From contig NZ_JADOER010000002.1 of assembly GCF_018739865.1 (NCBI RefSeq), forward strand, positions 84,859 to 148,858: a DNA stretch of 64,000 bases, written 5' to 3'. Position 1 is the stretch's first letter. Every line of letters starts with the position of its first letter. This DNA comes from Leptothoe kymatousa TAU-MAC 1615. Its GTDB lineage: Bacteria > Cyanobacteriota > Cyanobacteriia > Phormidesmidales > Phormidesmidaceae. Of this stretch, positions 7,399 to 43,701 are shown in pieces. A program made the position numbers and the translations under genes. The notes under the pieces were generated by a model that was not told where the DNA came from, made no database searches, and saw only the letters and a program-made list of their open reading frames with translations.

Positions 7399-8022
7399 AT
7401 GGCCCTTTCTTCTAAGCTTTGGCAGCAACATCTAGACTTGGCCCATGAGAGCCTGGCCCATCCCTTTGTCCAAGGCATTGGCGATGGCACCCTACCCAAG
7501 GCCACCTTTGCCTACTACGTGGGCCAGGATGCCTTTTTCCTAGAAGCCTTTGCGCGGGCCTACAGCATTGCGGCGGCTAAGGCCCCCACCTGGCAAAGTT
7601 TTAACGTGTTCCACGACCTAGCTGCCGGAGTGCTGGCGGAACTCAACCTGCACCAGGGCTATGCCCAAACCTGGCAGGTGGATTTATCCCAGGTCACCCC
7701 CGGCACCGCCACCCGGCAGTATACGGATTTTTTGCTGGCCACCGCCTGGAGCCAGCCCATTGGTGTCACCGCCGTGGCCATGTCCCCCTGCATGCGGCTA
7801 TATGCCTATCTGGGGCAGCAGCTGGCCCAGATAGGCATTCCGGAGCACGGCTACAAGGATTGGATTGCCACCTACAGCAGCGATGAATTTGAACCCCTGG
7901 CCGCCCAGTTGGAGGCGATTGTGGATGACTATGCTGAGGATAGCGAGCTAACTCGGTCCACCTATCGGTATGCCATGGTGTGTGAACGGGACTTTTTCCA
8001 GGCGGCGTGGCAGCATCAGTGA
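7399..8022 (+). CDS. tenA: TenA family protein (thiaminase II / aminopyrimidine aminohydrolase)
   Basis: Cytosolic helical enzyme of thiamin salvage; TenA hydrolyses 4-amino-5-aminomethyl-2-methylpyrimidine (a thiamin breakdown product) to the hydroxymethyl form reused for thiamin. The nucleophilic cysteine of the TenA_C subgroup is present in MSPCMRLYAYLG near residue 131, and the C-terminal catalytic Glu is in MVCERDFFQAAW. Length 207 is slightly short of typical (about 220). There is no TPP-riboswitch-like fold visible in the 70 bases upstream. It is divergent from prfB and lies 73 bases before the first nucleoside-hydrolase-like gene on the same strand. Confidence 0.9.
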   Translation: MALSSKLWQQHLDLAHESLAHPFVQGIGDGTLPKATFAYYVGQDAFFLEAFARAYSIAAAKAPTWQSFNVFHDLAAGVLAELNLHQGYAQTWQVDLSQVTPGTATRQYTDFLLATAWSQPIGVTAVAMSPCMRLYAYLGQQLAQIGIPEHGYKDWIATYSSDEFEPLAAQLEAIVDDYAEDSELTRSTYRYAMVCERDFFQAAWQHQ

Positions 8023-8081
8023 AGATAGGTAAGGGGTGCGCGTAGTTTGCACTGCGCTTCAATTATTCGTTTCCACAATTT

Positions 8082-8086
8082 AGGAG
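8082..8086 (+). promoter_or_regulatory. Ribosome binding site shared by the DUF1593 trio (copy 1)
   Basis: AGGAG stands nine bases before ATG 8096. The same TTAGGAGA-type leader, followed by an A/C-rich spacer and CCCATGGAT, precedes all three paralogues (AGGAG at 8082, 9876 and 13250), so the duplicated unit included the translation start region. Confidence 0.8.
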
Positions 8087-8095
8087 AGTCACCCC

Positions 8096-9208
8096 ATGGA
8101 TCGGCGAGCGTTTTTAAGGACCTCGCTCATAGGTCTGGCTATGGGCTCGTGTAATAAAAGTAACCTGAGATCTGTTGCCCAAACGGATGCCCAAACGACA
8201 GATCCGGGACCCTCGATCCTCAGCGATAAACCACGGATTATTGTCATTTCCGATATTCAGGTAGGCAAGGGGGATCCGGATGACCGACAGTCCATGGCCC
8301 ACCTGATGATGTATGCCAATGAGGTGGATATCCGTGGCATTTGGCCCGATAACTTGGATATTGGCCTAGAGGGTACCGAGATCGTATTGGACCATTACGA
8401 CGAGGATTACAACAATCCGGCCTACCAGTTTCAGTCCTTGAACTATCCGTCCCCGGAATACATCCGTTCCAAGGTGTTTTCGGACCATGACCAAGCCATT
8501 GCGGCCGTTCGGTCAGAAGCCCAGGCGGATGATCCTCGCCCCTTATATATGTTGGTTTGGGGCGGCACCCATCGGGTGGTTCAGAGTTTGGAAAAACTTA
8601 CCCCTGAGGAACAAGGCAAGATCCGGCTAATTTCCATTGGCACCTATCTGCGGGATAACGCCTTCGCCGATGGCGACGGTCAAAAATATAACTGGAATGC
8701 CTGGGGGGAATCTCGCATGGATATTTGGAATCGGTTTCCAGAGGTGTGGTGGCTGGAAATGGACTGGTCCTGGAATGGCATGGCGTTTAATCAAGATTTA
8801 AGCATTGCCAATGCAGCTAAGGAGCTGAATCAGCTGCTGGCTGAAAATGCGGGTGCCCTGGGGGGCCATATTCAGGAGGTATTTCCTAAGTATTTTCGAT
8901 CCCTAGATACCAATTCGTTGCTGTACTTGCTGGATCCCGCTAACGATTTGGATGATCCCACCGGTGGTTCCTGGGCGGGGCAGTACCATCGTCCCTTTGC
9001 GGACAGGCCGAACTACTACACGGGCATCGATGGCGGCTATGACTGGGCCTATGACAATCCGGCCAGTACCTGGCAAAATGCTCGGGATGTTTTCGTGGCC
9101 CGGATGCAAACCTGCATCGATCAACGCAGCGCATGGCATCAATCCTTTCAGCAAAAGGTGGTGCAGCTGTATGGCCATGACGCCGTGGAGTCGGCTCCGG
9201 AGACATAG
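8096..9208 (+). CDS. Exported nucleoside-hydrolase-like protein (DUF1593/Sde182), short paralogue 1
   Basis: Matches the DUF1593/Sde182 family, a branch of the nucleoside hydrolase fold: an N-terminal strand ending IVISD, then the metal-site-like cluster GDPDDRQSMAHLMMYANEVDIRGIWPD. The signal starts DRRAFLR (twin-arginine) with a hydrophobic stretch. A cysteine in LAMGSC, absent from the two longer paralogues, could be a Tat-lipoprotein attachment site, though the lipobox is imperfect. The protein is only the catalytic-fold domain (370 residues). Family knowledge suggests hydrolysis of a nucleoside or glycoside-like substrate outside the cytoplasm; the substrate is unknown. It converges with the 2H phosphoesterase gene, leaving six bases between them. 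Confidence 0.82.
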   Translation: MDRRAFLRTSLIGLAMGSCNKSNLRSVAQTDAQTTDPGPSILSDKPRIIVISDIQVGKGDPDDRQSMAHLMMYANEVDIRGIWPDNLDIGLEGTEIVLDHYDEDYNNPAYQFQSLNYPSPEYIRSKVFSDHDQAIAAVRSEAQADDPRPLYMLVWGGTHRVVQSLEKLTPEEQGKIRLISIGTYLRDNAFADGDGQKYNWNAWGESRMDIWNRFPEVWWLEMDWSWNGMAFNQDLSIANAAKELNQLLAENAGALGGHIQEVFPKYFRSLDTNSLLYLLDPANDLDDPTGGSWAGQYHRPFADRPNYYTGIDGGYDWAYDNPASTWQNARDVFVARMQTCIDQRSAWHQSFQQKVVQLYGHDAVESAPET

Positions 9209-9214
9209 TTCTGG

Positions 9215-9775
9215 TTAGGGAGTGGGGGCAGGTTGACCTAACGGATACTCCTGGTGAATTTGCCACCGCTGACCATCGTGGCGCAATAGGGTGACCTGCT
9301 GGGCGGTGAAGTCAACCGCTAGAGGTTTGTGCTGAAATTCTGGCCAGGCTTGGTGAAAGGCGGCTGGGGTGAGATCGCGAAACGCCACGGTCATGTGGGG
9401 ACAAAAGCTGCGGTAATGGCGTTCGGTAATGCCGTGCTGGTGGGTCATTAATTGGGCTAGGTCGCTTTGTAGACTCATTAACCCTGGACTTTGTACCACA
9501 TCCACATAGATCACCTTGGGGGGGAAGGCGGCGAAATTGCGGAGGGCGATCGCAATTTTTTCTCTCTCCATAACAAAAATTCTTAATCCATCCGTGAGTA
9601 CGGTCAGCTGACGTGGGCTAGACAACTCAAACGGTGCCTGCAGAGTGATATGCGGTGGCGAATTAAACGCCTTACGCGAGCCATAGTGCTCCGCAAAATA
9701 CTCCTTAATTTGATGGATGGATGTCTGAACTTCCGGAGGAGGTAAAAGAGCGATGAAGAATTTCTGCGGATACAT
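9215..9775 (-). CDS. 2H phosphoesterase (2'-5' RNA ligase / cyclic phosphodiesterase family)
   Basis: Two-histidine phosphoesterase. Both HxTx motifs are present: HITL at residue 42 and HMTV at residue 127, the spacing expected for the ThpR/LigT group. Members hydrolyse 2',3'-cyclic phosphates on RNA ends or nucleotides, or act in reverse on 2'-5' links in vitro; the physiological substrate is rarely known. Length 186 is normal. The gene is on the minus strand, wedged between paralogues 1 and 2 of the nucleoside-hydrolase-like family and divergent from paralogue 2 with a 114-base gap. Confidence 0.88.
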   Translation of the reverse strand: MYPQKFFIALLPPPEVQTSIHQIKEYFAEHYGSRKAFNSPPHITLQAPFELSSPRQLTVLTDGLRIFVMEREKIAIALRNFAAFPPKVIYVDVVQSPGLMSLQSDLAQLMTHQHGITERHYRSFCPHMTVAFRDLTPAAFHQAWPEFQHKPLAVDFTAQQVTLLRHDGQRWQIHQEYPLGQPAPTP

Positions 9776-9889
9776 GAGCTAACGATGAAGCATTGCTAGA
9801 CCCCCGCAATCTAGCAGCTATTTTCCCCGCTCGTGGTTTGTCTTTCCCTGTAGCACGTCTGTGTCAATCAGTATTAGGAGAACAAACCC

Positions 9890-12874
9890 ATGGATAGGCG
9901 AGCTTTTTTAAGAAACTCCCTCCTAGGTGTTGCAGCAGGTTCTTTGGGTAAAAACGGTTTAATATCCATTGCCAGAGCTGCTGATGGTCAGATTACACCG
10001 CTAGGCCAGCGACCACGTGTTGTGGTTATTTCTGATATTAAAGCCGGCAGTGGAGACCCCGACGATCGGCAATCCATGGCCCATCTGATGATGTATGCCA
10101 ATGAAGTCGATATTCGTGGCATTTGGCCCGACGATATGAGCAGTGGGGGAACCGCCACCCGCATTGCAATAGATAATTACGAGAAAGATTACAACAACTC
10201 TTCCTACAACTTTAAAAAATTAGACTATCCCACCCCAGCGCAAGTTCGTACAAAACTATTTACCAGCCATAACCAAGCCATTTCGGCCATCAAAACGGAA
10301 GCAGGGCGGGCAGATTCCCGTCCCATCTATATGCTGGTTTGGGGCGGTACCCATCGCGTTCCTCAAAGTTTGGAACGCCTGACCGCGCAAGAACGGAGTA
10401 AAATCCGTCTGATTTCCATTGGTACCTATCTGCTCGATAATGCCCTGGCTAGCGGAGACGGTCGCCGCTACAACTGGAATGCCTGGGGTGAGGCCCGCAA
10501 CAACATCTGGAAACGGTTTCCAGATGTGTGGTGGCTGGAAATGGATTGGACCTGGATGGGGATGGTTTTCAACGAGAACCTACGGGTCTCGAACGAAGCC
10601 ATTGTACTGAACGATCGACTCGCCAGAGATGCGGGCGCTTTAGGCGCTCATATCAAAGCAGTCTTTCCTAGATATTTTCGAGCTTTAGATACTAACTCAT
10701 TGCTCTACGTACTGGACCCTGCCAATAATCTAAATGATCCCACCAAGGGGTCTTGGGCCGGACGGTATGTCAGACCCTTTTCAGAAAGACCCAATTACTA
10801 CATTGGCATTGACGGTGGCCACAACTGGAACTATGGAAATCCTGCCAGTACATGGTCCAACGCCAGAAGCGTCTTTAATTCCCGCATTCGTACCACCATT
10901 TCTCAGCGAAATGCTTGGCATCAGGCATTTATTCAAAAGGTTCAGCAGCTCTATGGCCACGAGCCGATTAGCGATCGGCCTACCGTGACCGCAGGGGCAG
11001 ATACCTCTATCCAACTGCCGGCAGATTCCATTACCCTGACCGGCTCTATCGGTAGCCTCGGATGTGCCGTTGCTACCTATCAATGGAGTCAGGTAAGTGG
11101 CCCCGCCAATGTGGCCTTAAATGGGGCTACATCGCCGCAACTGAGGGTGAATAATTTGACGGTGGCCGGTACCTATGTCTTTCGCCTAACGGTGACTGAT
11201 GTTTGTGGAGCCCGGGCCACAGACGATGTCCAAGTGACCGTATTGCCGCCCAACAATGGCCCTGTCGCTAATGCTGGACCCGATCAAACCTTGAATGATA
11301 GTGATGGGGATGGTGAAGCCCGTGTCGTGCTGAACGGTACTGGCTCAGTGGATGGGACTGGCACTATCGTCTCCTATGTGTGGAAGGAAGGCAGTCGGGT
11401 CTTAGCAACGGCTGACACTGGTTCAGTGGCTATTGACTTGCCCGTGGGTGTGCACACCCTCACATTGACGGTCACTGACGATAAACGCATGACCGCTAGT
11501 GACAGTGTCAAAATTACGGTGAATGGTGAGTCGCCTTCTCCTAATGAGGATGACGGTGGTGGAGAGTCACCCCCCTCATCGAATACGGGGCTATATCGCG
11601 CCATTAATCTAAACGGTGCTGCTGTGACGGTGGATGGTGTTTCCTTTGAAGGGAAAAATGCCGGCAACTATTCCACGGTGGGACGTACCCATGTCAGTCG
11701 TACAGCGCCCCAATCGGTGGTGAATAATGGGCAACGCTCCATGCTTCAAAGCTTTATTTGGGGCAGACCTGTGAGTGTGACCATGACGAGTATTCCTACC
11801 GGTGTATATCAGGTTTATCTCTGGGTATTTGAAGATAACAACAGCGTTACCTATTCTGTAAAGCTAAATAGCAGAGTGGTGCTCATGAATCAGCGCTCTG
11901 GCAGTGCTGGGTCCTGGAAGCGCTTGGATTTGGGAACAACGACCATTACCAATGGTCGCTTGGCCGTACAGGGAGATCTCTCTAGGGACGCCCTGAATAT
12001 GTGTGCGATCGAGGTGTGGCGTGAAGGGGGTAGTGCGCCTGCTAATCAGGGACCGACAGCAGATGCTGGTGCCAATCAAACCGTGACGGACAGTGATGGA
12101 GACGGCACTGAACGGGTAACGTTGAATGGCTCAAATTCTAGCGATCGCGACGGCCGCATTGCCTCCTATCGTTGGCAGGAAGGCAGTGCTACATTAGCTA
12201 CCACCGCAACCGCTGCGGTTAACCTGTCAGTGGGGGTACATACACTGACCTTGACGGTTACCGATGATAATGGCAGTACCGATAATGACACAGTCACCAT
12301 TACCGTAAACCAGAGGCCCGCTGCCCCAGAACCAGAGGAACCCCCATCTCCAGAACCAGAGGAACCCCCATCCCCAGAGGAACCTGAGCCCAATCAACCG
12401 TCGCCGCCTGAGGGCGATACCCCCCTGACTGGAACGCTGTATCGTGCCATTAACCTTAATGGGAGTGCCACCGTAGTAGATGGCGTTTCCTTTGAAGGCC
12501 AAAATGCGGCCAACTATTCCACAGTAGGTCGTACCCATGTCAGTCGTACGGTGCCCAAACCCGCTGTAGATAGGGCGAAACAGTCTATGCTACAGCGCTT
12601 TATCTGGAATCGTTCCGCAAGAGTGACGATGACCAGTATTCCCCGTGGTTCTTATCAAGTCTATCTGTGGGTGTTTGAAGATAACCACAGCGTTAACTTC
12701 TCAGTCAAAGTGAATGGTAGAACTGCGCTAGCCAATCAGCGCTCGGGTGTTGCGGGCAGTTGGAAGCGTCTAGATTTAGGCACGGCTAACATCAGCAATG
12801 GTCAGTTGGTAGTGCAAGGAGAGCTCTCTCGGGATGCCCTCAATATGTGTGCAATCGAAGTGTGGAGGGAGTAA
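9890..12874 (+). CDS. Exported multidomain DUF1593-PKD-malectin protein, paralogue 2
   Basis: 994 residues. Order: Tat signal (DRRAFLR, cleavage probably after ARA-A); nucleoside-hydrolase-like DUF1593/Sde182 domain, about 40-358; PKD-like domain with two cysteines, 362-454; a second PKD-like domain opening with DSDGDG, 455-545; Asp/Gly-rich linker; malectin-like carbohydrate-binding domain, 567-711; third PKD with DSDGDG, 715-808; Pro/Glu linker with repeated PEPEEPPSP, 809-842; a second malectin-like domain, 846-994. PKD modules are extracellular spacers; malectin-like modules bind sugars. A surface or periplasmic enzyme tethered to polysaccharide fits. AGGAG precedes ATG by nine bases. The catalytic substrate is unknown, and I infer carbohydrate binding only from fold resemblance. 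Confidence 0.83.
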   Translation: MDRRAFLRNSLLGVAAGSLGKNGLISIARAADGQITPLGQRPRVVVISDIKAGSGDPDDRQSMAHLMMYANEVDIRGIWPDDMSSGGTATRIAIDNYEKDYNNSSYNFKKLDYPTPAQVRTKLFTSHNQAISAIKTEAGRADSRPIYMLVWGGTHRVPQSLERLTAQERSKIRLISIGTYLLDNALASGDGRRYNWNAWGEARNNIWKRFPDVWWLEMDWTWMGMVFNENLRVSNEAIVLNDRLARDAGALGAHIKAVFPRYFRALDTNSLLYVLDPANNLNDPTKGSWAGRYVRPFSERPNYYIGIDGGHNWNYGNPASTWSNARSVFNSRIRTTISQRNAWHQAFIQKVQQLYGHEPISDRPTVTAGADTSIQLPADSITLTGSIGSLGCAVATYQWSQVSGPANVALNGATSPQLRVNNLTVAGTYVFRLTVTDVCGARATDDVQVTVLPPNNGPVANAGPDQTLNDSDGDGEARVVLNGTGSVDGTGTIVSYVWKEGSRVLATADTGSVAIDLPVGVHTLTLTVTDDKRMTASDSVKITVNGESPSPNEDDGGGESPPSSNTGLYRAINLNGAAVTVDGVSFEGKNAGNYSTVGRTHVSRTAPQSVVNNGQRSMLQSFIWGRPVSVTMTSIPTGVYQVYLWVFEDNNSVTYSVKLNSRVVLMNQRSGSAGSWKRLDLGTTTITNGRLAVQGDLSRDALNMCAIEVWREGGSAPANQGPTADAGANQTVTDSDGDGTERVTLNGSNSSDRDGRIASYRWQEGSATLATTATAAVNLSVGVHTLTLTVTDDNGSTDNDTVTITVNQRPAAPEPEEPPSPEPEEPPSPEEPEPNQPSPPEGDTPLTGTLYRAINLNGSATVVDGVSFEGQNAANYSTVGRTHVSRTVPKPAVDRAKQSMLQRFIWNRSARVTMTSIPRGSYQVYLWVFEDNHSVNFSVKVNGRTALANQRSGVAGSWKRLDLGTANISNGQLVVQGELSRDALNMCAIEVWRE

Positions 12875-13263
12875 AAAGACATTTCTGGGCTAAGAGAATC
12901 TAGAGTTCTAAAAGGGCAATACGCGCCATACTCATGCAGAGATAGCCTTAGATAAAGATTCTAAAATGCTACGGTTATGTGGGAGAAAATCTATCATGAG
13001 ATGTCTCTTACTAACCGTAGCCCCTTGTTAGAATAGTCATTCTCTTTCCCTGTGAAAATACGCTGCATTAGGGGTTGTATAGGGCTAAAGAGTGTCAGAA
13101 AAAAAGAGAAGAATAAAGCAATTACTACGGAACCATGAGTTGCTAATGAAGAGTTGGGATTAGGCCCTGCGATTTGGCTTTTTTTCTACCTAAAATGCTT
13201 GTGGGCTCTACTCCAAATTCAATATTTCTTTGCTTTTAAACTAAATCTTAGGAGAATCAGCCC
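12875..13263 (+). other. Intergenic region between paralogues 2 and 3 with a long-loop inverted repeat
   Basis: 389 bases without an open frame I can support. A perfect 10-base inverted repeat GCTACGGTTA (12968-12977) / TAACCGTAGC (13012-13021) encloses 34 bases. No T-run follows, so it is not a standard terminator. The 3' half is AT-rich and probably holds the promoter of paralogue 3. Confidence 0.45.
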
Positions 13264-16197
13264 ATGGATAGGCGAGCTTTTCTGAGAAACTCACTTTTGG
13301 GTTTTGCTGCAGGTTCCTTGGGAAGGGACGGTTTCCTTTCTATGGCAAGTGCCGCAAGTCAGGGCTCAACCCCACTGGGGCAACGCCCCCGAGTTGTTAT
13401 TATTTCTGATATTAAAGTGGGGACCGGTGACCCCGATGACCGTCAATCGATGGCGCATCTGATGATGTATGCCAATGAAGTTGACATATGTGGAATTTGG
13501 CCTGACTCTCTTCAGAGCGGTTCTGATGCAACAAAAATTGTCTTTGATAAGTATGAAGCAGACTACAACAACCCGGACTATAACTTTCAAAAGTTAAATT
13601 ACCCTACACCTGCTTATCTTCGTACCAAGTTATACACCAGCCATAGTGAGGCAATTGCGTCGATCAAAGAAGAAGCGGGGTTATCGGATCCTCGTCCTAT
13701 CTATATGCTGATTTGGGGGGGGACCCAACGTGCACCTCAAAGTTTAGAGCAGATGACGGCGGCAGAGCGGAGTAAAATTCGTCTTATTTCCATTGGTACG
13801 CATCTGCGGGATAACAGTCTCTCTACTGGTGATGGTCGCCTTTATAACTGGAATGCTTGGGGAGAGTCCCGGAATGATATTTGGCGAAGATTTCCGGATG
13901 TTTGGTGGCTGGAAATGGACTGGTCTTGGAATGGAATGGCCTTTAATGAGAATTTGCGGACCGCGTCAGAAGCCATAGACCTGAATAACTTATTGGCGCG
14001 TGATGCCGGCGCGCTGGGGGCTCACATTCAAGAAGTCTTTCCGAGATATTTTCGAGCCCTGGATACTAATTCCCTACTGTATTTGCTCGATCCTGCCAAT
14101 GATCTCGACGATCCAACTAAAGGGTCTTGGGCCGGACGATATGTCAGCCCATTTCCTGACAGACCAAATTACTACATTGGTATCGATGGTGGTTTTGAAT
14201 GGGATTATGCAAATCCTGTTAATACTTGGAACAATGCTAAAAATGTGTTCTCAGCCCGGATTAGAACTTGTATAGATCAAAGGAATGCGTGGCATCAGGC
14301 GTATATTCAGAAGTTTAGGCAGCTTTATGGCCTTGACCCGATTGATGATCCTCCGACTGTAAGTGCAGGGGATGATGTCTCGATTAAGCTTTCGGCAGGT
14401 GCATTTACATTGACAGGTTCGGTTTCGCAGTTAACCTGTGCTATTGCCTCATACCAGTGGACGCAGGTGAGTGGCCCGTCCACCGTATCCTTAAACAACG
14501 CTACTACAGCGGAAGTGACGGTAGATAATGTGTTGGTGGCCGGTCTCTACGTTTTCCGACTAACCGTTACTGACGTGTGTGGAGCCCAGGCAACGGATGA
14601 TGTTCAGGTTAATGTTTTACCAGCCAATGGAGGGCCAACCGCTGATGCTGGGCCAGATCAGACTGTTATTGACAGTGATGGTGATGGTGTTGCACGTATT
14701 GACCTGAATGCAACGGGGTCTACAGATGGTGATGGCACCATTGTCTCCTATGTATGGAAAGAAGGTGGTACTACGGTTGCGATCGCGGATTCTGCAATCA
14801 TTTCTGTCAACTTGGATGTCGGTGTCCACACCATTACGTTGACAGTGACCGACGACAATGGAGCAACGTCCAGTGATAGCGTGACCATCACAGTCGAAGC
14901 CGGGACATCACCACCAGATGATGGCGGCGGGGATGATGGTGGTGGTGAGCCATCATCTGGGACGTTATATCGAGCGATTAACCTAAATGGAGATGCTGTT
15001 TCTGTAGATGGCGTGTCATTTGAAGGTAAAAATGCCTCGAACTATTCCACCCGTGGTTTCACTCAAGTGTCGACTACTGTTCCTACACCGGCTGTGGCTT
15101 CGAGCCAACAGGCGTTGCTTCAAAGCTTTATCTCGAGCCGGTTGAGTACAGTGACTTTAACCAGCGTTCCTGATGACGAGTACCAGGTTTATCTTTGGGT
15201 ATTCGAAGATCGGAAGAAAAGTGTCACTTTTGCGGTGAACATGAATGGAACAGCTGGTCTGAGCAACCAAGTTTCTGCTAATACTGCTGGGGCCTGGCAA
15301 CGTTTGAATTTGGGCCGAGTGGTTGTTAGTAATGGCGTGTTAGCTATTCAGGCAGATATGCCACGAGGCACCCTGAATATGTCTGCCATTGAAGTGTGGC
15401 GTATTGAGGATGCACTACCCCAGAACCAAATTCCTGTGGCTGATGCTGGCTCTAATCAGACAGTAACTGACAGTGACGGAGATGGCTTGGAGTCAGTTAC
15501 CCTAAATGGTAGCGGCTCATCGGATAGCGATGGAAGCATCGTGTCCTATGAGTGGAAAGAAGGCAGTACTACGCTAGCGACGACGGCTACAGCTGCAGTA
15601 AATCTTACCGTTGGTGTCCATACCATTGCGTTGACGGTGACCGACGACAATGGAGCAACGTCCAGCGATAGCGTGACCATCACGGTCGAAGCCGGGACAT
15701 CGCCACCGGATGATGGCGGCGGCGGTGACGACGGTGGCGGTGACCCATTGGCTGGGACGTTATATCGAGCTATTAACCTGAATGGTAATTCTGTCTCGGT
15801 AGATGGCGTGTCATTTGAAGGTAAGAATGCCGCCAACTATTCCACGGTAGGGCGTACCTTTGTCAGCCCCACGGTCCCTAGTCCAACGGTGGATGCCTCC
15901 ACACGTTCGTTGCTCCAGAGCTTTATTTGGGGTAGACCGGTCAGCGTAACCATGACCAATATTCCCAACGGTTCTTTCAAGGTGTATTTGTGGGTGTTTG
16001 AGGATAACAATACGGTTACATTTTCCTTAAAGGTTAACGGTAGCGCTGTATTGACGAATCAACGCTCTGGCTCAGCCGGTACCTGGAAACGTCTGGATCT
16101 CGGCACCGTGACCATCAGTAACGGTCAGCTAGTGGTTCAAGGAGACCTGTCTCGGGATGCATTGAATATGTGTGCCCTTGAGGTGTGGCGAGGCTAG
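13264..16197 (+). CDS. Exported multidomain DUF1593-PKD-malectin protein, paralogue 3
   Basis: 977 residues with the same order as paralogue 2: Tat signal DRRAFLR; DUF1593/Sde182 domain about 40-358; PKD with a cysteine pair 363-455; PKD with DSDGDG 458-545; Gly/Asp linker; malectin-like 564-716; PKD with DSDGDG 722-810; Gly/Asp linker; malectin-like 833-977. The linkers are Gly/Asp-rich (DDGGG) instead of the Pro/Glu linker of paralogue 2. The second PKD end, linker and malectin start are duplicated almost exactly at DNA level (14840-15040 and 15635-15835). The catalytic-fold cluster GDPDDRQSMAHLMMYANEVD is unchanged, but the arginine of DIRGIWPD is cysteine here (DICGIWPD). Function as for paralogue 2; exported, sugar-binding, substrate unknown. 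Confidence 0.83.
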   Translation: MDRRAFLRNSLLGFAAGSLGRDGFLSMASAASQGSTPLGQRPRVVIISDIKVGTGDPDDRQSMAHLMMYANEVDICGIWPDSLQSGSDATKIVFDKYEADYNNPDYNFQKLNYPTPAYLRTKLYTSHSEAIASIKEEAGLSDPRPIYMLIWGGTQRAPQSLEQMTAAERSKIRLISIGTHLRDNSLSTGDGRLYNWNAWGESRNDIWRRFPDVWWLEMDWSWNGMAFNENLRTASEAIDLNNLLARDAGALGAHIQEVFPRYFRALDTNSLLYLLDPANDLDDPTKGSWAGRYVSPFPDRPNYYIGIDGGFEWDYANPVNTWNNAKNVFSARIRTCIDQRNAWHQAYIQKFRQLYGLDPIDDPPTVSAGDDVSIKLSAGAFTLTGSVSQLTCAIASYQWTQVSGPSTVSLNNATTAEVTVDNVLVAGLYVFRLTVTDVCGAQATDDVQVNVLPANGGPTADAGPDQTVIDSDGDGVARIDLNATGSTDGDGTIVSYVWKEGGTTVAIADSAIISVNLDVGVHTITLTVTDDNGATSSDSVTITVEAGTSPPDDGGGDDGGGEPSSGTLYRAINLNGDAVSVDGVSFEGKNASNYSTRGFTQVSTTVPTPAVASSQQALLQSFISSRLSTVTLTSVPDDEYQVYLWVFEDRKKSVTFAVNMNGTAGLSNQVSANTAGAWQRLNLGRVVVSNGVLAIQADMPRGTLNMSAIEVWRIEDALPQNQIPVADAGSNQTVTDSDGDGLESVTLNGSGSSDSDGSIVSYEWKEGSTTLATTATAAVNLTVGVHTIALTVTDDNGATSSDSVTITVEAGTSPPDDGGGGDDGGGDPLAGTLYRAINLNGNSVSVDGVSFEGKNAANYSTVGRTFVSPTVPSPTVDASTRSLLQSFIWGRPVSVTMTNIPNGSFKVYLWVFEDNNTVTFSLKVNGSAVLTNQRSGSAGTWKRLDLGTVTISNGQLVVQGDLSRDALNMCALEVWRG
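14840..15835 (+). repeat. Intragenic near-identical direct repeat in paralogue 3 (two copies)
   Basis: The segment covering the end of a PKD domain, the Asp/Gly linker and the first part of a malectin-like domain occurs twice, near 14840-15040 and 15635-15835. Stretches such as the CGACAATGGAGCAACGTCCAG word and GATGGCGTGTCATTTGAAGG are identical, and differences are mostly at third positions. This suggests recent duplication or gene conversion. Confidence 0.75.
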
Positions 16198-41853: not shown

Positions 41854-43695
41854 TTAGGGATGATTTGCTAATGGAGTTGGTGTAACAAAGATGCCCAAGC
41901 CATTATTAATACGGGCAGCTGTTTGGGGATGGCGATTGGTTAGACGTCCTCCCAGATACAGACTCGATGAACTCCCCCCATCCAGATTTAACGCTGTATT
42001 GCACCCTAGTTTCTGTAAAATTTGAGCCGTTTCCCTCAGGTTTGGTCCACGCCCACCGACACGATCTTGGATGGCGACTAGTTTGATGTCGCCTTTGGGG
42101 GTAAGGCCTAGGACGCTTCGGGGGGCTCTGCCTGTAATGAAGTTGTTGCTAAATCCTTCTTGCTGAGCATTGAGAACGATTTTGCTATTGGAGATCAGTA
42201 GAGGACCGGCTCCGAGAATGTGGGGAAACTGTTCGAATGTGTTGGGTAATGGTTGTTGGTTGAGGGTGATGTCTGCCCCCACGGTGAAAGCTGTAGCGGC
42301 AGAGCTGAAAGCTCGAAACGTTAAGAGATAGCCTCCGGCGGGGATGGGCAGGGTATTTTGACCGGCTGTGCCCAGGGTTCGCTTTTGGGTAACTTTTCCG
42401 TTTTGGATGGTGACGACAATTTCATTGTCTACCAGCGTGGTGTAGGTGGGGCCCCAGGCATCCGTGTAGTGACCAATGCCAGCTTTGACGTAACCGCTAT
42501 TAAGGGTGTCTACGGCAAAGGTTTGATTGTTGGCCGTGACGCTGGTGCTCAATGTGAGGCGGTCGACGATGACTTCTCCTTGGTCATTCCAGGCAATGGC
42601 TCCGCGTCCTAAAATAGGGCCTGAAATCCAACGGTTATTGGCCCGTAAGGCGCCCAGCGGTAGTTGATTATTGCGATTGAAAAAACCGCCGTTGATTAAG
42701 GCGATTGTTTCTTCCTGGGCTGCGAGGTCGGCCGGGGGTTTGATGCCGGAAGCTTTGTTTGGAAAGGCTCCGAGGGGCAGTAGGGAAAACTGGGGATTTT
42801 GTGGGGCTAGGGTGATGGTGTAAACCGGGAACCGTTGACGGGCAAGGTTAATGTAGCGTTGCTGGAATTGTAATCCGTCTGCCCAGAGAATTTCTTTGGG
42901 TTTGAGGGCATCGGGACGAATATCGATGATGAGTCGGTGGGGCTGAGACAAACTCCAAATGTTGGCATGTAAATGGTCAGCGACCGATATGGTGAGGGTG
43001 GTGCGCTGATTGCTGGAGGTAATGTTGAGGTTTTTGATGCCCGGTGTGGAGGTGAGCTTGAATTGAGCGATCGCAGCCTTTGCCATGGCCGCATCTACAG
43101 TTACCGTAATCCGATTAGCCGCTGGGCTCATTTGCCAGGCGGTGGCATTACTGAGATCCAACACCAGACGATCGCCCCAAGGCTGTCGTCCCTGACGGAG
43201 CGCTGCAATATTGCTTTGGGGCAATTTGAGATCGAGTACTGTCCCCTGGGGAGTTACTTGCCAACCATGCTGACGAATCAGCGGTTCGATGTCGACATAA
43301 CGATTGTGGTCGTAGTGCCATGCGGGTAATTCCAGCAGCCCTTGGTTGGCACCTTGAAACCATGCAACGGGCTGCTGTTTAGGGTTGCCCGTGCTCCTCA
43401 AATCAACCCCAAGCTGAGTGGCGATTGCCCCATCTGAAATGCCAACCAGGTTGCGACGCTTTTGCCAGTCACCGGGGACTAGACGCCCGTTAATGCGCAG
43501 TTGAGTCCCACTGGCGGTTGGTTCTGCCGCTTTTACCAAAGCAAGTTGGCCAATGGATGATGAAATCACCTGGGTGATAGCAGGTTGTGAATTTATCTGG
43601 GCGCCTCCCAGTACAAATCCACAGGTGCACAGCATGAGGAAAAAGTATTTGAGAGATGTTTTGAGTTGGGAAGACCAATAACCTGGCATTGACAT
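41854..43695 (-). CDS. Exported phosphodiester glycosidase (NAGPA) family protein
   Basis: About 613 residues. A signal peptide (YFFLMLCTCGFVLGGA) is followed by a proline-poor beta-rich region with AMIN-like strands (WGDRLVLDLSNATAW, HRLIIDIRP), then a C-terminal NAGPA/DUF2233 domain: INGGFFNRNNQLPLGALR, GRAPRSVLGLTPKGDIKLV and the active-site-like ALNLDGGSSSSLYLGG. NAGPA enzymes remove N-acetylglucosamine from phosphodiester-linked sugars; bacterial members are thought to act on cell-wall or exopolysaccharide. The AMIN-like part would target peptidoglycan or the envelope. The longest frame starts TTG 43701; I use ATG 43695 (another ATG is at 43689). Confidence 0.85.
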   Translation of the reverse strand: MSMPGYWSSQLKTSLKYFFLMLCTCGFVLGGAQINSQPAITQVISSSIGQLALVKAAEPTASGTQLRINGRLVPGDWQKRRNLVGISDGAIATQLGVDLRSTGNPKQQPVAWFQGANQGLLELPAWHYDHNRYVDIEPLIRQHGWQVTPQGTVLDLKLPQSNIAALRQGRQPWGDRLVLDLSNATAWQMSPAANRITVTVDAAMAKAAIAQFKLTSTPGIKNLNITSSNQRTTLTISVADHLHANIWSLSQPHRLIIDIRPDALKPKEILWADGLQFQQRYINLARQRFPVYTITLAPQNPQFSLLPLGAFPNKASGIKPPADLAAQEETIALINGGFFNRNNQLPLGALRANNRWISGPILGRGAIAWNDQGEVIVDRLTLSTSVTANNQTFAVDTLNSGYVKAGIGHYTDAWGPTYTTLVDNEIVVTIQNGKVTQKRTLGTAGQNTLPIPAGGYLLTFRAFSSAATAFTVGADITLNQQPLPNTFEQFPHILGAGPLLISNSKIVLNAQQEGFSNNFITGRAPRSVLGLTPKGDIKLVAIQDRVGGRGPNLRETAQILQKLGCNTALNLDGGSSSSLYLGGRLTNRHPQTAARINNGLGIFVTPTPLANHP

Positions 43696-43701
43696 CGGCA
43701 A

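Follow-up and report, generated by a model that had tools for sequence, protein, structure and literature searches.

What is the role of three neighbouring genes for exported proteins with a nucleoside-hydrolase-like (NH-like) head in a cyanobacterium? The genes, which we call A, B and C, lie in Leptothoe kymatousa TAU-MAC 1615, within a stretch of 64,000 nucleotides (the window) that was analysed as a whole. A first-pass annotation had described them as a tandem trio sharing strand, Tat signal, ribosome-site leader and core sequence. Inspection of the open reading frames and upstream regions confirms these common elements. All three proteins begin MDRRAFLR, with a Tat-type RR, and the core GDPDDRQSMAHLMMYANEVD is identical in A, B and C. 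The 17 bases directly 5′ of the ATG are 71–82% alike among the three, while the 83 bases beyond this leader are only 25–33% alike, i.e. at chance level. The heads have pairwise identities of 64–76%, and full-length B and C share 69% identity. The three genes do run on the same strand, but they are not an unbroken tandem array, as a 2′-5′ RNA ligase-like gene on the minus strand lies between A and B. The order is thus tenA-A-ligase-B-C-smpB. The tenA-like gene directly upstream of A is on the same strand and separated from it by 73 bases, and this adjacency is kept in three genomes. The genes around the trio are of the housekeeping kind (tenA, RNA ligase-like, smpB), with no polysaccharide-degradation partners that might hint at a substrate. 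We claim no functional link to tenA (thiamin salvage), since sister genomes that lack the NH-like genes have tenA at this site too.

Table 1. Features of the locus; positions are numbered from the first base of the window.
Feature	Position	Strand	Basis
tenA-like gene	7399..8022	+	
Leader of A with ribosome site TTAGGAGA	8079..8095	+	
Gene A, short form of 370 aa with Sde182_NH-like head; putative Tat lipoprotein with lipobox ...LAMGSC19	8096..9208	+	ORF, Pfam, pattern
NH-like domain of A, residues 47-297; Asp53, Asp60/62/63, Asp271, Leu270	8234..8986	+	Pfam
2′-5′ RNA ligase-like gene	9215..9775	-	
Leader of B with ribosome site	9873..9889	+	
Gene B, long form of 994 aa; Tat-type signal followed by NH-like, PKD, PKD, malectin-like, PKD, malectin-like	9890..12874	+	
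NH-like domain of B, residues 43-293	10016..10768	+	Pfam
PKD 1 of B, residues 368-451	10991..11242	+	Pfam
PKD 2 of B, approximate extent residues 455-546	11252..11527	+	
Malectin-like unit 1 of B	11582..12025	+	
PKD 3 of B, approximate extent residues 719-808	12044..12313	+	Pfam
Malectin-like unit 2 of B	12428..12871	+	
Leader of C with ribosome site	13247..13263	+	
Gene C, long protein, 977 aa, domain order as in B	13264..16197	+	
NH-like domain of C, residues 43-293; Asp49, Asp56/58/59, Asp267, Leu266; AF2 model covers residues 37-360	13390..14142	+	
PKD 1 of C, residues 368-451	14365..14616	+	Pfam
PKD 2 of C, approximate extent residues 457-546	14632..14901	+	
Malectin-like unit 1 of C, the more divergent one	14956..15405	+	
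PKD 3 of C, residues 721-808	15424..15687	+	Pfam
Malectin-like unit 2 of C, the one modelled	15751..16194	+	

The heads of A, B and C all match the Pfam family PF07632 (Sde182_NH-like, formerly DUF1593), with E values of 1e-20 to 7e-22 and scores of 74.6–78.7 bits against a gathering score of 26.8, the profile being covered in full. An AF2 model of the head of C has a pLDDT of 75.8 and a pTM of 0.81. Its top match in Foldseek is 2yhg, the structure of Sde_0182 (2.9e-9), and this is also the best match in VIA-align, with Z 23.4 over 252 aligned residues at 2.9 Å; true nucleoside hydrolases and XopQ score lower, at Z of about 15–17. Judged from this model, the head has the nucleoside-hydrolase fold that had been proposed for it, and is closest to Sde_0182.

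In nucleoside hydrolases the metal-site aspartates and the catalytic histidine have established roles. In Pfam none of the three proteins matches the IU nucleoside hydrolase family PF01156 at E values up to 0.1, and hhalign of the head against one single nucleoside hydrolase was uninformative; a profile of 21 cyanobacterial nucleoside hydrolases was therefore used. With this profile the head aligns co-linearly (global P 4e-6), beginning at the first strand and running through to the end. Asp49, Asp58/59 and Asp267 of C fall on the metal-site aspartates, while Leu266, adjoining the last of these, sits at the position of the general-acid histidine. The position is leucine in all seven cyanobacterial relatives and glycine in the two Bacteroidota members. 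Neither the metal-site aspartates nor the core around them vary in the same seven relatives. The heads have the fold and the metal-site alignment in common with the IU nucleoside hydrolases, and differ from them in the lack of a family match, the absent histidine, an altered DxDPGxDD motif, and the existence of exported multidomain forms.

B and C each add a tail of three PKD and two malectin-like domains, as first described; the order in both is PKD-PKD-malectin-PKD-malectin. Three K319L-like PKD domains are identified in each by Pfam (PF22352 / PF18911), and two repeats of 148–150 amino acids (LYRAINLNG...EVWR) follow PKD 2 and PKD 3. The assignment of these repeats as malectin-like holds at the level of homology. 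None of the four units of B and C has a Pfam match even at E 10, PF11721 included, and a sequence search of the PDB with the units gave no match. Yet a profile of nine units is co-linear with the classical malectin profile over 138 of 148 columns, with hhalign P values of 8e-8 to 1e-7 and scores of 49–50, where the best of 100 column-shuffled controls reached 21; the same units do not match the PKD or NH profiles. Homology to malectin is therefore well supported by profile comparison. The structural side of the assignment is weaker. The AF2 model of the second unit of C has a pLDDT of 59.7, with the N-terminal half under 50, and this low-confidence model gives Z 9.2 to Xenopus malectin in VIA-align, tied with CBM35-type folds; the fold is common to many carbohydrate-binding and some non-sugar domains. 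Compared with malectin / CBM57 (PF11721), the window units have in common the co-linear profile and, at the low confidence of the model, a beta-sandwich, but their loop is shorter at the site of the aromatic ligand residues of malectin. By computation, the tail is composed of PKD modules and putative malectin-like beta-sandwiches.

The proposed export of the trio finds support, since a Tat-type motif (DRRAFL/DRRVFL, by pattern match) is present in 7/7 relatives and TatC is encoded in the genome (E 5e-65). The two forms differ in one further respect. A lipobox cysteine at position 19 is found by a PROSITE-like pattern in all three short forms, and in none of the four long forms. On this basis the short form is predicted to be anchored in the membrane, and the long form to be released.

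How widely is this arrangement distributed? Of 386 cyanobacterial genomes, three carry PF07632, one of them with a score below the cut-off. Among the genomes searched, close relatives of the window type are restricted to four genomes of one genus, and the malectin-like unit is absent from all others of the 386, so that the restricted distribution is upheld; outside the cyanobacteria the range of the unit was taken from one motif-based head scan and a plasmid collection. Leptothoe kymatousa has A, B and C; Leptolyngbya sp. Heron Island J has A only; Leptolyngbyaceae MAG.088 has A together with a 1303-aa long form carrying four PKD modules and three malectin-like units. In MAG R4_Bin_126 there is just a long form, and its contig has different neighbouring genes. 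Genome G000 is 75% complete, so that the number of copies counted in it is a lower bound. Three sister genomes have the tenA-smpB interval without NH-like genes. In the sister genome G397 (L081 2293-2946), an unrelated ORF of 217 aa lies at the position of gene A, so the interval seems to take up different genes. In another genus of the same family (L009 in G170 and L022 in G388) there are canonical PF07632 proteins (271 bits in G170), and since these are only remotely related to the window type they suggest a separate acquisition.

The copies at the locus are not the product of recent tandem amplification, which is ruled out by saturated synonymous sites. Among the copies dN is 0.15–0.25 while synonymous sites are near or at saturation, a pattern indicating that they are old and under purifying selection. 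In a tree the heads of the short forms cluster apart from those of the long forms (support 81/99). Moreover, the locus in MAG.088 has the order tenA-A-B-ligase-smpB, unlike that of the window. The first-pass annotation had the trio expanding locally and growing its PKD and malectin modules; saturation and differing gene order point instead to old duplicates rather than a fresh array, and the tail may have been either gained or lost. Malectin-like units 1 and 3 of the long protein of MAG.088 (L004 9669-13580) are nearly identical, and reflect a recent duplication within the gene.

The locus was also put forward as an undescribed system, which is too strong, because a crystal structure exists for PF07632, and fusions of NH-like heads with carbohydrate-binding modules are already on record. 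Sde_0182 of Saccharophagus degradans (2yhg) likewise has the NH-like fold, with an aspartate motif DPDD and a second conserved aspartate in a DT motif, and as here it unites head, beta-sandwich and carbohydrate-binding modules in one chain. The structural alignment gives only about 24% identity to the window head, however, and the modules of Sde_0182 precede the NH domain (PMC8910321), where the PKD and malectin-like units of B and C follow it. Other PF07632 heads are joined to CBM60 (Skermanella) or to a CBM13-like stretch and an esterase domain (Indioceanicola). Hymenobacter proteins (for example WP_245126038, plasmid NZ_CP095062) alternate K319L-like PKD and malectin as in the window, but with classical malectin domains and a Kelch propeller in place of the NH-like head. 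What is new is the rare NH-PKD-malectin combination, its restriction to one genus in our sample, the divergence of the heads (75–79 bits, against 143–271 for the canonical PF07632 members met in the analysis), and the difference in anchoring between short and long forms.

What, then, might these proteins do? The reading that we favour, at roughly even odds, is that they are lineage-restricted, Tat-exported Sde182-type proteins in which a metal-holding head acts on a furanosyl glycan and the tail tethers the protein to polysaccharide. The head would hold a divalent metal, Ca2+, and use it to bind, and possibly to hydrolyse, a non-nucleoside furanosyl sugar of an extracellular glycan. The PKD modules would serve as spacers, and the malectin-like modules would hold the long forms to the polysaccharide of sheath or capsule. 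The short paralogue would be a lipoprotein fixed to the membrane and working near the cell, with the long forms released into the sheath. A bolder version, which we regard as doubtful, is a division of labour between membrane-held and sheath-released forms of a metal-dependent furanosidase with a new substrate; this would make it an unrecognised glycoside-hydrolase family in the turnover of the cyanobacterial sheath.

The alternative that survives best, although we think it rather unlikely, is that the head is dead or purely binding, and the whole protein a structural or adhesive component of the extracellular matrix. The catalytic histidine is indeed absent, PKD and malectin-like modules make up the bulk of B and C, and Sde_0182 is reported to be inactive on nucleosides (PMC8910321). 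Yet the invariance of the metal-site aspartates and core in seven relatives, together with the retention of the tail-less A under purifying selection, argues that the head matters on its own.

Could the head instead be a true nucleoside hydrolase, exported to scavenge extracellular nucleosides? The fold, the aspartates in their places and the export signal would fit, as would the conserved position of A beside a vitamin-salvage gene. Against this, the histidine is replaced by leucine, the DxDPGxDD motif is altered, PF01156 gives no match, and an ordinary nucleoside hydrolase is already encoded in the same genome. The nearest solved relative, Sde_0182, is reportedly inactive on purine and pyrimidine nucleosides (reviewed in PMC8910321, where a furanose-module hypothesis for the protein is quoted). 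With the general acid missing and this relative inactive, ordinary nucleosidase activity of the heads is unlikely, and the scavenging role is improbable. The earlier suggestion of a nucleoside-like substrate is weakened accordingly, and by analogy with Sde_0182 the more probable target is a non-nucleoside furanosyl glycan. It is very improbable that the head recognises not a polysaccharide sugar but ADP-ribose or some related nucleotide sugar, in the manner of XopQ, an NH-fold protein reported to bind ADP-ribose without nucleosidase activity (PMC8910321). The fold comparison does recover XopQ structures (Z 16.4) and the aspartate motif here, too, is unlike the classical one, but the similarity is not above that to ordinary nucleoside hydrolases, there is no sequence match, and carbohydrate modules in the same chain favour glycans.

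PF07632 is a family with a solved structure and no activity reported in the literature searched, in which we found no paper mentioning DUF1593 or PF07632. A clade with tailed and tail-less forms, a conserved difference in anchoring, and presence or absence among sister genomes provides a compact set with which to probe the extracellular role of this fold.

Elsewhere in the window, on the minus strand at 41854-43701, there is a protein of 615 aa in which a long N-terminal part without assignment precedes a C-terminal phosphodiester glycosidase (NAGPA) domain.
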